Below, piece by piece: positions 19,847 to 23,748 of a DNA stretch of 48,512 nucleotides (its first letter is position 1; every line of letters begins with the position of its first letter). A program made the position numbers and the translations under genes. The notes beneath the pieces are model-generated. The model did no database searches. It saw only the letters and a program-made list of their open reading frames with translations, and was not told the DNA's origin. This stretch comes from Hydrogenophilus sp. (GTDB taxonomy: Bacteria > Pseudomonadota > Gammaproteobacteria > Burkholderiales > Thiobacillaceae), in NCBI GenBank assembly GCA_020725195.1, contig DYFL01000005.1:1-48512 (forward strand). The letters run 5' to 3'.

Positions 19847-20992
19847 ATGCCCACAATATCCATCGCCGCACCCGCCATCCAGCCCTTCCAGCCCCCGCGC
19901 CGCACCCTCATGGGCCCCGGCCCGTCCGACGTGCCCCAGCGCATCCTGGATGCGATGGCGCGGCCCACCATCGGCCACCTGGACCCGGCCTTCGTCGGCA
20001 TGATGGAGGAGCTCAAGGCCCTGCTGCGCTACGCCTTCCAGACCGGGAACGCGCTCACCTTCCCCGTCTCGGGCCCCGGCTCGGTCGGCATGGAGACCTG
20101 CTTCGTGAACCTGGTGGAGCCGGGCGACAAGGTCATCGTCTGCAGCAACGGGGTCTTCGGCGGGCGCATGCTGGAGAACGTGCGGCGCGCCGGCGGCCGC
20201 CCGGTGGCGGTGGAAGACGCCTGGGGCGAGCCCGTGGACCCGGGCAAGGTGGAGGACGCCTTCCGGGCCCATCCGGACGCGAAGGCGCTCGCCTTCGTCC
20301 ACGCCGAGACCTCCACCGGGGCGCAGTCCGACGCGAAGGCCCTGGCCGCCATCGCCCGGCGCCACGGCGCGCTCAGCATCATGGACTGCGTCACCTCGCT
20401 GGGCGGCACGCCGGTGCTCGTCGACGCATGGGGCATCGACGCCGCCTACTCCGGCAGCCAGAAATGCCTGTCCTGCACCCCTGGGCTCTCGCCGGTGAGC
20501 TTCAATGATCGCGCCGTCGAGCGGGTGCGCGCGCGCAAGACCCCGGTGCAGAGCTGGTTCATGGACCTGAACCTGGTGCTCGGCTACTGGAGCGGGGAGG
20601 GCCGCCGCACCTACCACCACACCGCCCCCATCAACCCGCTCTACGGCCTGCACGAGGCCCTGGTGATGCTGGCCGAGGAGGGCATCGAGCACGCCTGGGC
20701 CCGGCACCGCGCAAGCCACGAGGCGCTCAAGGCGGGCCTGGAGCGGCTGGGCATCGGCTTCGTGGTGGCCGAGGCGGCGCGCCTGCCCCAGCTCAACGCC
20801 ATCCGGATCCCGGAGGGGGCGGACGACGCCGCGCTGCGCACACGGCTCCTGCAAGAGTTCAACCTGGAGATCGGCGCCGGCCTGGGGGTGCTCGCCGGAC
20901 GGATCTGGCGCATCGGGCTCATGGGCCACAGCGCCCGGCCGCAGAACGTGGACCACTGCCTGCGGGCGCTGGAGGCCGTCCTCCGGCCCTGA
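19847..20992 (+). CDS. Class V aminotransferase (alanine/serine-glyoxylate type)
   Basis: PLP enzyme of the alanine-glyoxylate/serine-glyoxylate aminotransferase group, 381 residues. RRTLMGPGPSDVPQRIL at the N-terminus, PVSGPGSVGMETCFVNL, HAETSTGAQ, DCVTSLGG and the PLP-lysine segment YSGSQKCLSC are typical, as is the substrate loop YHHTAPINPLYGL. The start ATG has a strong GAGGAAGAGG site. The exact amino donor cannot be read from sequence. No glyoxylate or photorespiratory partner gene lies beside it. Confidence 0.9.
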   Translation: MPTISIAAPAIQPFQPPRRTLMGPGPSDVPQRILDAMARPTIGHLDPAFVGMMEELKALLRYAFQTGNALTFPVSGPGSVGMETCFVNLVEPGDKVIVCSNGVFGGRMLENVRRAGGRPVAVEDAWGEPVDPGKVEDAFRAHPDAKALAFVHAETSTGAQSDAKALAAIARRHGALSIMDCVTSLGGTPVLVDAWGIDAAYSGSQKCLSCTPGLSPVSFNDRAVERVRARKTPVQSWFMDLNLVLGYWSGEGRRTYHHTAPINPLYGLHEALVMLAEEGIEHAWARHRASHEALKAGLERLGIGFVVAEAARLPQLNAIRIPEGADDAALRTRLLQEFNLEIGAGLGVLAGRIWRIGLMGHSARPQNVDHCLRALEAVLRP

Positions 20993-20994
20993 GC

Positions 20995-21101
20995 AAAAAA
21001 AGGCCCGGCTCAAGGGGAGAAAGCCGGGCCAGAAGAGCCTTAACCATTGCGTTAAGGCACCCGCTCAGGGAGGAGAAGCGGGAGACGAAGCGATTCGTCT
21101 C
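20995..21101 (-). ncRNA. Candidate sigma-E-dependent small RNA with anti-Shine-Dalgarno loops
   Basis: Read on the minus strand, four consecutive hairpins follow a sigma-E-like promoter: GAGACGAA/TTCGTCTC (21082-21101), a CCCGCT/AGCGGG stem with loop TCTCCTCCCTG (21060-21082), a GCCTTAAC/GTTAAGGC stem (21037-21058), and a 9-bp GGCCCGGCT/AGCCGGGCC stem whose loop contains CTCCCC (21002-21030), ending in seven U (20995-21001). The C/U-rich loops are complementary to Shine-Dalgarno sequences, as in the 'cuckoo' small RNAs of alphaproteobacteria. The predicted length is about 107 nt. It is antisense to nothing and fills the aminotransferase-hemB gap. Prediction only; strand choice rests on promoter plus U-tract. 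Confidence 0.65.
21002..21030 (-). terminator. Intrinsic terminator of the candidate small RNA
   Basis: A perfect 9-bp GC-rich stem (GGCCCGGCT/AGCCGGGCC) with a 11-base loop is followed on the minus strand by seven consecutive U residues at 20995-21001. This is the clearest intrinsic terminator in the window. On the plus strand the A-tract precedes the stem, so it would work poorly for the aminotransferase gene. Confidence 0.75.
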
Positions 21102-21106
21102 GATAA

Positions 21107-21134
21107 ATAGAGATCGCGATTGACAGAAAGTTCC
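21107..21134 (-). promoter_or_regulatory. Sigma-E-type promoter
   Basis: On the minus strand GGAACTT (21134-21128) is followed, after 16 bases, by TCTAT (21111-21107). GGAACTT is the consensus -35 element for RpoE and the spacing and TC-start of the -10 fit. Transcription would begin about 21101, exactly at the base of the first small-RNA hairpin. Confidence 0.6.
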
Positions 21135-21148
21135 CGGGGCGGTACAGA
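21120..21148 (+). promoter_or_regulatory. Possible sigma-70 promoter of hemB
   Basis: TTGACA (21120-21125, perfect -35) is followed after 17 bases by TACAGA (21143-21148), a moderate -10. Transcription would begin near 21155, about 28 bases before the hemB ATG. It overlaps the opposite-strand sigma-E-type promoter, so the two could interfere. Confidence 0.5.
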
Positions 21149-21158
21149 ATCCCGCTGA

Positions 21159-22187
<1,029 letters not shown>

Positions 22188-22208: not shown

Positions 22209-22943
22209 CTATAGCAGACGCGCCCGGCGTTCGCGCTCGACCTTGTAGATGTAACGCTGGATCTCCGTCTCCACCGCGGCGGGCAGGCGGACGAACTGGC
22301 AGCCCGCCCGCAGGGCCACGAGGCCGTTGCGCATGGTCTCCTCGTAGGCGTTGCAGGCCTTCACGCTGATCAGGTAATCGCCCGCGCCCGGTATCGACAG
22401 GCGGCAGCCCTCGTAGACCGCGCCCGTGCACAGCCGGAAGCTGCCCGGGTGGTAGAGGACGCCGACGCCGCCGACGCTGATGTCGGTCACCAGGGCCTCC
22501 AGCGCAGCCTCGCCGCTGCCGAAGAGGCATTTCACCGGCTGGGTCAGCGAGGTGATCAGGCGGTAGTACTCGCGCCGCTGAAGCCTGAGCAACTGGCCGG
22601 GCATCCGCAGCCTGAAGACGCATTCGCCTTCCCGGACCGCGCGCTCCGCCGGCGGGGTGACGAACTGCACGCGCACCTGCTCGTGGGTCGCGGTCGCGGC
22701 GACCTCCACGCTGCCGAAGATGGCCTCGTTCTGGGCCGCGTTCGGACCGCAGGCCAGCAAGACCGCGCTGCCGTCGGCCTCGATCCCGGTGATGGCGGTC
22801 AGCACGAAGTCCCTGCCGTTGTCGCCGTGCAGCGTCACGAGGGTGTGGGCCTCCTGCATGCCCCGGAGGATCCGTTCGATCTCGGGGCCGTGGCGCACCA
22901 GGTATCGGCTGAGGTCCCCCTGGCTGTCGTATTCGAAATGCAT
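22209..22943 (-). CDS. YcgR-like PilZ-domain protein (c-di-GMP effector), copy 1
   Basis: Predicted cytoplasmic c-di-GMP-binding protein of 244 residues with an N-terminal YcgR-like domain and a C-terminal PilZ domain. The PilZ binding motifs are RLQRREYYRLI (RxxxR) and DISVGGVGV (D/NxSxxG). The start at 22943 (MHFEYDSQGDLSRY) has a GGGGAG site; a longer in-frame extension upstream is Arg/Ser-rich and overlaps the neighbouring gene, so I rejected it. Directly downstream of a paralogue on the same strand. Confidence 0.88.
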   Translation of the reverse strand: MHFEYDSQGDLSRYLVRHGPEIERILRGMQEAHTLVTLHGDNGRDFVLTAITGIEADGSAVLLACGPNAAQNEAIFGSVEVAATATHEQVRVQFVTPPAERAVREGECVFRLRMPGQLLRLQRREYYRLITSLTQPVKCLFGSGEAALEALVTDISVGGVGVLYHPGSFRLCTGAVYEGCRLSIPGAGDYLISVKACNAYEETMRNGLVALRAGCQFVRLPAAVETEIQRYIYKVERERRARLL

Positions 22944-23004
22944 CGCTCCCCCCGTCCGCCCGGTCTGTTGCCGGGCCGTGTCAGGCCTGCGCCGGCGCGG
23001 CGCG

Positions 23005-23748
23005 CTATCGGTCCCAGGAGCGGCGCTCCCGCTCCAGCTTGAAGATATAGGTCTGGATCGCGCGCTCCGTGGGCACGCCGAGGTCGACGAATTCGCAGCC
23101 CAGGCGCTGGACCAGGGCACCGTTTTTCAGCGCCACCTGGGCGCTGCTGCGCACCTTCAGGGTGACGGTGTAGGCGCCGAGTTCCGGGATGCCTAGGCGG
23201 CAGCCCGGCAGTTCCATGCCCACGCCGAGGGCGGAGGCCCCGGCGTCATGGCGAATCCCGACGCCGCCGACGCTGATGTCGACGATGACGGCCTCCAGGA
23301 CGCCGCCGGCGAGCGGAATGGCGCATTTCACGGGTTGCGCCTGGGGGGTCTGCACCCGGTAGTACTGCCGCCGCTGGAAGCGGTAGACCTTGTCCGGAAG
23401 GCCGAGCCCGTAGGCGTCGAGGCCGTCGAACCGGGTGCGCTCGCCGCGGGTGGCGGTGAACTGGATGCGCACGCCCTCGCAATGCGCGGTCAGCTCGATG
23501 CCCGCCCCGCCCAGCAGGTCCCCCTCGGCGCGCCGGTCGGCGGCGCACTCGATATAGAAGCGCCGGGCCCGGTCGTCCAGGCCGAGGAGGGTGGTCAGGT
23601 AGGTCTCCTTGCTCCGGCTGCCCTGCACGGTCAGCAGCGCCCTGTCCTTCATGAGCCCGCGCAGGATGCGCTCGATCTCCCGCGCGTTGCTGATGGCGAA
23701 CCGGCTGAGGTCCGCCTGGCTGCCGGATTGGTAGTTCTCGATATCCAT
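23005..23748 (-). CDS. YcgR-like PilZ-domain protein (c-di-GMP effector), copy 2
   Basis: Paralogue of the next gene, 247 residues with the same two-domain layout. Binding motifs are RFQRRQYYRVQ and DISVGGVGI, and both proteins share the ending IxxYI(Y/F)KxERERR, so a tandem duplication is likely. The N-terminus MDIENYQSGSQADLSRFAI aligns with the paralogue. Proximity to the type IV pilus operon makes a motility or surface role plausible but unproven. Confidence 0.88.
   Translation of the reverse strand: MDIENYQSGSQADLSRFAISNAREIERILRGLMKDRALLTVQGSRSKETYLTTLLGLDDRARRFYIECAADRRAEGDLLGGAGIELTAHCEGVRIQFTATRGERTRFDGLDAYGLGLPDKVYRFQRRQYYRVQTPQAQPVKCAIPLAGGVLEAVIVDISVGGVGIRHDAGASALGVGMELPGCRLGIPELGAYTVTLKVRSSAQVALKNGALVQRLGCEFVDLGVPTERAIQTYIFKLERERRSWDR

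Follow-up and report, generated by a model that had tools for sequence, protein, structure and literature searches.

A conserved sigma-E-like promoter suggests RpoE control of the anti-hemB small RNA (RF02837) in part of the betaproteobacteria

In Escherichia coli, the small RNAs (sRNAs) RybB, MicA and MicL are expressed from RpoE promoters of the GGAACTT / TCTNA type and target the mRNAs of outer-membrane proteins. The cuckoo RNAs, among which UpsM is also counted, are known from alphaproteobacteria. According to one passage of PMC4504443, a cuckoo RNA has two to four hairpins, a conserved loop motif and helices without sequence conservation. Two further groups of sRNAs are described in betaproteobacteria, for which we rely on excerpts of the respective papers. 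The two anti-Shine-Dalgarno (anti-SD) stretches of Neisseria NmsR repress translation (PMC5362039). Bordetella pertussis S17, which is described as homologous to the RNAs of family RF02278, acts at ribosome-binding sites, as has been demonstrated for S17 (PMC11722255) and predicted for the ncS RNAs of that family.

The closest described relative of the RNA studied here is ncS04 of Burkholderia cenocepacia J2315, for which excerpts of the literature report a 105-nt transcript detected by dRNA-seq, with the 3' end also determined by RACE (PMC5688073, PMC4603805). In the excerpts of PMC5688073, ncS04 is named in the legend of a Northern figure, its binding to Hfq is stated by the authors as shown in an earlier study, and the qPCR table marks it with a dash, for no change, under each of seven conditions, namely biofilm, stationary phase, starvation, glucose medium, osmotic stress, low pH and low iron. 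An anti-hemB RNA is also listed for B. pseudomallei (excerpt of PMC3521395). In the portions of the literature covered, we found no assignment of RF02837 to sigma-E among texts on anti-hemB, ncS04 and betaproteobacterial RpoE sRNAs, and neither a function nor a regulator of the family among those on anti-hemB and ncS04.

We analyzed a 48,512-nucleotide stretch of a Hydrogenophilus sp. contig (DYFL01000005.1), hereafter the window, in which an earlier note had proposed a candidate sRNA gene driven by sigma-E. On the minus strand, the -35 element GGAACTT (21128-21134), the 16-nt spacer and the -10 element TCTAT (21107-21111; one base off TCTNA) are present as described, and they are followed by the sRNA gene at 20995-21101, with four hairpins and a terminal U7. 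The assignment of the -35 and -10 elements relies on the sequence and on the comparison with homologues, which place the -35 at a conserved position. Hairpin 1 (21083-21100), hairpin 2 (21060-21082), hairpin 3 (21037-21058) and hairpin 4 (21002-21030) make up both the minimum-energy fold (-52.3 kcal/mol) and the centroid fold, in agreement with the four hairpins previously drawn, and none of 200 dinucleotide shuffles is equally stable (z = -6.5). Hairpin 4 and U7 (21001-20995) form a Rho-independent terminator (20995-21030), according to fold, alignment and sequence. Two loops do expose anti-SD sequences: the loop of hairpin 2 reads CTCCTCCC, with the anti-SD CUCCUCCC, at 21075-21068, and that of hairpin 4 contains CUCCCC (CTCCCC in the DNA, 21019-21014). 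The 5' end of the sRNA probably lies at around 21099-21101, going by the length of ncS04 (105 nt) and by the spacing from the -10 element. A simple scan for promoters and terminators, whose terminator rule covers loops of 3-8 nt (the loop here has 9) and whose promoter rule covers sigma-70 only, returned zero sites in 20900-21250.

At curated thresholds, Rfam has a single match in the window, RF02837 'anti-hemB', which covers 20995-21085 of the minus strand over the full model (1-81) with 75.1 bits, the gathering threshold being 49.5. The sRNA therefore belongs to a known family, rather than being the unknown candidate of the earlier note, and it has an experimentally seen homologue in ncS04. 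The position agrees with the family definition, since the sRNA (minus strand) lies beside hemB (plus strand) in opposite orientation. The reading as an sRNA gene is in turn strengthened by the transcript detected elsewhere in the family and by the conservation of the stems.

To follow the family among relatives, we built a model, R1, from 27 homologues and let it extend over the 5' hairpin; it scores the window sRNA, which is one of these 27 sequences, with 117 bits. RF02837 is above cut-off in 48 out of 61 genomes (the Hydrogenophilus genome and 60 relatives), and R1 matches 50 of the same 61, the best match per genome reaching at least 55.8 bits. R1 also matches 33 of 80 titled hemB loci, in every case on the strand opposite hemB, and none of the four hemB loci of Methylophilaceae type (L063, L064, L068 and L083). 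From the overall 83 R1 matches we removed locus L051 (20.9 bits, a double-hairpin RNA), which left 82 loci, and L056, an upstream duplicate of L021, which left 81 distinct homologues. One genome, G060, hosts two R1-type copies, L033 and L050: the hemB-linked copy has a sigma-E-like promoter and the unlinked copy, L050, has TTGACA-N17-TATTCT.

The four-stem pattern, which the earlier note had suggested to search for in related genomes, is conserved. In a model-fitted alignment of 50 sequences (L051 included), both sides change in 29 of 31 base pairs, including all eight of hairpin 3, and 96.0% of the cells are paired, compared to 79.1% after shuffling. Since a fitted alignment leans towards structure, we examined hairpins 1 and 2 again in 42 sequences aligned by MAFFT without such fitting. 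Both-side changes were detectable in seven of seven pairs of hairpin 1 and in three of six pairs of hairpin 2 (10 out of 13 together), and 94.7% of the cells were paired, compared to 83.0% in shuffled and 31-54% in slid alignments. Hairpin 1 is thus supported by compensatory changes and, because it lies outside the 81-position Rfam model, that model does not reach the 5' part of the gene among these relatives. The stem sequence of hairpin 2 is nearly constant among the homologues, and 78 of 81 retain CTCCCTGA in its loop. A second C-rich loop, that of the terminator hairpin, occurs in 45 of the 59 homologues with a promoter of sigma-E type and in two of the other 22, where promoter type and loop number are confounded with clade.

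The -35 motif [GT]GAAC occurs at -29 to -23 from the R1 start in 59 of the 81 distinct homologues and is missing from this place in 22. GGAAC itself is found there in 53 homologues, compared to 0.6% per shuffled sequence, and the -35 combined with TC[TA] at a spacing of 15-17 nt in 56, compared to 0.9% of shuffles; these shuffles preserved base composition only, not dinucleotides, and the relatedness of the genomes inflates the counts. The presence of [GT]GAAC differs sharply between the 32 titled loci (13 with [GT]GAAC) and the remaining 49 (46 with the motif). The 13 titled loci with the motif are assigned to Gallionellaceae, Gallionella, Sideroxydans, Nitrosomonas, Nitrosomonadales, Nitrosomonadaceae, Rhodocyclaceae and Hydrogenophilales, in addition to three broader titles, one of which is 'Burkholderiales bacterium'. 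The 19 titled loci without the motif include Burkholderia, Paraburkholderia, Cupriavidus, Pandoraea, Paucimonas, Variovorax, Polaromonas, Caenimonas, Hydrogenophaga, Rubrivivax, one Comamonadaceae and three broader titles. Paucimonas has the near-match GAAACTT-N16-TCTGA, and Pandoraea has GAAACTT-N16-TCATA. In B. ambifaria, if the 105-nt length is transferred from J2315 and the RNA ends at the U-run, its start would have TATGAT, a -10 box of sigma-70 type, at positions -12 to -7, and the Burkholderia homologue likely has a sigma-70 promoter; this reading was worked out for B. ambifaria and made by eye for the other promoters without GGAAC. Three loci from Paraburkholderia and Pandoraea (L077, L107 and L120) show the palindrome-like GGTATATCATACC over the -10 region, possibly the site of a regulator.

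RpoE is encoded in the same genome as the window (TIGR02939, 279.9 bits, cut-off 236.15), with GGAACTT-N17-TCA upstream of the gene. In 31 rpoE loci, composed of the best-scoring 30 from the 61 genomes and the own one, 21 (own locus included) have [GT]GAAC...TC[TA] among the 300 nt preceding the gene, compared to 3.4% in shuffles that preserved base composition only, and the remaining 10 have no motif by the same rule. Overall, RpoE is above cut-off in 52 of the 61 genomes. To compare the occurrence of RpoE and the sRNA, we took one genome of at least 90% completeness per genus, which was available for 34 out of 36 genera. Both are present in 28 genera, neither in three, RpoE only in three and the sRNA only in none (Fisher p = 0.003, an optimistic value because the genera are related). 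The corresponding table of all 61 genomes has 48 with both, 2 with the sRNA only, 5 with RpoE only and 6 with neither (p = 0.0002, likewise optimistic), with G036 counted as RpoE-positive on a truncated match of 231.8 bits, just below the cut-off. RpoE is below cut-off in two of the 50 sRNA-bearing genomes, which are 80% and 84% complete and both lie outside the genus table. Neither RpoE above cut-off nor an R1 match occurs in the g8 genomes (G007, G017, G025 and G033), which are small (1.3-1.7 Mb), or in G045 and G055.

GGAACTT-N14-17-TC shows no enrichment within the own genome (21 rows, compared to 139 for the reversed pattern), so that the motif alone is weak evidence, and the single site of GGAACTT-N14-17-TCTNA falls inside an open stretch of 373 codons. 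We therefore rejected an RpoE regulon defined by motif alone, the looser motif being rarer than its reversed control, and read only the sites upstream of the sRNA and of rpoE as supportive. The conservation of the promoter and its match upstream of rpoE suggest that RpoE switches on the sRNA in much of the group, Burkholderia excepted.

The neighbouring hemB gene, encoding porphobilinogen synthase, lies at 21183-22187 on the plus strand (NCBIfam NF006762, 487.9 bits, cut-off 297; Pfam ALAD, 441.7). Its putative promoter, TTGACA-N17-TACAGA (21120-21148, plus strand), was read from the sequence and has a weak -10; TTGACA is at 21120-21125 and TACAGA at 21143-21148, 17 nt apart. TTGACA falls inside the spacer of the sRNA promoter, and the two promoters therefore overlap in the window. 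From the overlap of the sRNA -35 with the hemB promoter the earlier note had derived a link between envelope stress and haem synthesis. The overlap is real in the window, while the link to haem remains a guess, as exact TTGACA is found at this place in only 3 of 82 loci (L001, which is the window, L031 and L038). We also looked for a hemB promoter that keeps its position across loci, with 45 of the 82 loci scored, and did not find one.

The gene order is more widely kept: hemB is divergent from the sRNA in 77 of the 82 loci. In 75 of these, 43-311 nt separate it from the R1 start, and in the other two (L111 and L125) it is 1.46 kb away. No hemB was found upstream within 1478 nt at L023, 612 nt at L043, 659 nt at L047, 555 nt at L050 and 45 nt at L046, the last being too short a stretch for a verdict. 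Since the promoter motif is kept at L023 and L043, it is tied to the sRNA. Because the sRNA gene points away from hemB, its transcript is not expected to pair in antisense with the hemB coding sequence. The link between the two is positional, with promoter interference as a possibility.

On the other side of the sRNA, a class-V aminotransferase gene (19847-20992, plus strand; Pfam Aminotran_5, 67.1 bits; no NCBIfam equivalog above its cut-off) has a stop codon that ends 2 nt short of the sRNA 3' end (20992-20995). The scan lists no terminator in 20900-21250, and read-through from the aminotransferase gene would therefore yield RNA antisense to the sRNA. Beyond hemB, two adjoining minus-strand genes (22209-23120 and 23005-23748) each have YcgR PilZN and PilZ domains and form an apparent tandem pair, which we take to encode c-di-GMP receptors of the flagellar-brake type.

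The computed part of our preferred explanation comprises family membership, the four stems, an anti-SD loop 2 that hardly varies, and a promoter of sigma-E type that 59 of 81 homologues have at a fixed distance. We consider it probable that the locus encodes a trans-acting, Hfq-type RF02837 sRNA, divergent from hemB, that is induced by RpoE in envelope stress and blocks ribosome-binding sites. RpoE would transcribe the sRNA in envelope stress, and the loop of hairpin 2 would pair with the Shine-Dalgarno sequences of selected mRNAs and block the binding of ribosomes, by analogy with NmsR and S17. The C-rich loop of the terminator hairpin, present in 45 of the 59 members of sigma-E type, may act by the same analogy as a second Shine-Dalgarno-pairing loop. 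Burkholderia, Cupriavidus, Variovorax and their relatives have retained loop 2, with the motif missing. A more far-reaching version, which we hold only tentatively and regard as doubtful, is that of an ancestral betaproteobacterial sRNA of the RpoE regulon, a brake on translation with two loops that envelope stress sets off and whose promoter occludes that of hemB, so that one binding of RpoE would both cut haem supply and repress a set of mRNAs; Burkholderiaceae would later have exchanged the sigma factor and lost the second loop.

That housekeeping sigma-70 or another ECF factor transcribes the sRNA, with GGAAC not being specific to RpoE, seems unlikely to us. The AAC core is common to the -35 of many ECF factors, the genomes hold several further ECF-like matches, and both the TATGAT of B. 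ambifaria and the promoter of the unlinked copy L050 would suit sigma-70. Against this, the site in the window has no sigma-70 match by the scan rule, 21 of the 31 rpoE loci have a matching motif upstream of the gene, and the three genera without RpoE also lack the sRNA. It is still less probable that the element acts mainly in cis, with the divergent promoter or antisense transcription controlling haem synthesis and the RNA as a by-product. The sRNA runs away from hemB and has zero antisense overlap with its coding sequence, selection on DNA alone does not require covarying stems, and hemB is distant from the sRNA at L111 and L125 and not found near L023, L050, L043 and L047. These points speak against a cis element despite the divergent hemB in 77 of 82 loci and the overlapping TTGACA in the window. 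The multiple hairpins with C-rich anti-SD loops and the stress-type promoter speak for a genuine cuckoo RNA in a betaproteobacterium, one that is homologous to the CcsR-type RNAs of alphaproteobacteria. This origin is highly improbable, given that a DUF1127 neighbour and an RpoH-type promoter are absent, that alphaproteobacterial Rfam models stay under threshold (ar14, 24.6 versus 58.8; suhB, 19.6 versus 41), and that the hairpin 2 stem is nearly constant, unlike the cuckoo helices in the passage of PMC4504443.

As a possible target of the trans-acting sRNA we considered ctaD (cytochrome c oxidase subunit I), recognised from its sequence. In the own genome, its Shine-Dalgarno sequence gives a strong match to loop 2 and is one of eight AGGGAGGA-N4-11-ATG places. 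Over 24 ctaD loci, the energies of pairing with loop 2 lie between -6.0 and -17.0 kcal/mol and are correlated with those of plain anti-SD pairing (Spearman 0.61). Because it is not uniformly strong, we excluded ctaD as evidence. At two distant ctaD loci, L210 and L221, loop 2 pairs better than the strength of the Shine-Dalgarno sequence suggests.

The RNA family was already known, and sigma-E control is its newly supported part, for which the comparison of homologues argues fairly strongly. It is a first lead on the control of RF02837. The conserved RpoE-type promoter gives the family a testable signal, envelope stress, in lineages including Gallionellaceae, Nitrosomonadaceae and Rhodocyclaceae, for which we know of no RpoE-controlled sRNA described so far. 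The different promoter of the Burkholderia clade offers a reason for the lack of response of ncS04, and the contrast between promoters would be an example from nature of one sigma factor taking the place of another in front of an sRNA that stays the same.

When compared to known systems, the window RNA shares with RybB, MicA and MicL a kinship in control only, sequence and targets being different. Like the cuckoo RNAs (CcsR1-4) and AbcR, it has hairpins exposing anti-SD motifs, and stress or nutrient regulation would be a further likeness. Its four hairpins and two C-rich loops can be set beside the cuckoo definition given in the passage of PMC4504443, from which the nearly constant hairpin 2 stem departs. 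CcsR differs in its RpoHI/RpoHII promoter, co-transcription with the DUF1127 gene ccaF1 and RNase E processing. We rejected cuckoo membership: the CIN1 context is missing, the neighbours are hemB and the aminotransferase gene, the promoter is of GGAAC type and the loci are betaproteobacterial where resolved. The cuckoo layout seen by the earlier note fails on those context features that were open to testing, with no adjoining DUF1127 gene and no RpoH-type promoter. The same note had considered this layout notable in a betaproteobacterium; anti-SD sRNAs are already known there from RF02278/S17 and NmsR.

NmsR (RF02877) is, like the window RNA, betaproteobacterial and has two anti-SD stretches; it differs in its tandem siblings, link to RelA, sigma-70-like promoter and TCA-cycle targets (excerpt of PMC5362039), and no NmsR match is listed in the window at E <= 1. 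The RF02278 RNAs (toxic sRNA; ncS03/05/27/62 and bdhR1) share anti-SD stretches and a terminator hairpin with the window RNA. They are unlike it in having two hairpins and several dispersed copies and, as far as the excerpts on S17 go, a sigma-A promoter in that member. As a member of RF02278 the window RNA was rejected (24.7 bits, threshold 50). The own genome has a true RF02278 member elsewhere (G000:C108:5721-5781, L002:1499-1561; 63.8 bits), which lies upstream of a match to a group II intron by about 90 nt. The closest relative remains ncS04/RF02837, which resembles the window RNA in sequence, hairpins 2-4, terminator, divergence from hemB and a length of about 105 nt. The window RNA differs from the Burkholderia type in its sigma-E-like promoter and second C-rich loop, both of which are missing from the Burkholderia, Paraburkholderia and Pandoraea loci L080, L077, L120 and L107.
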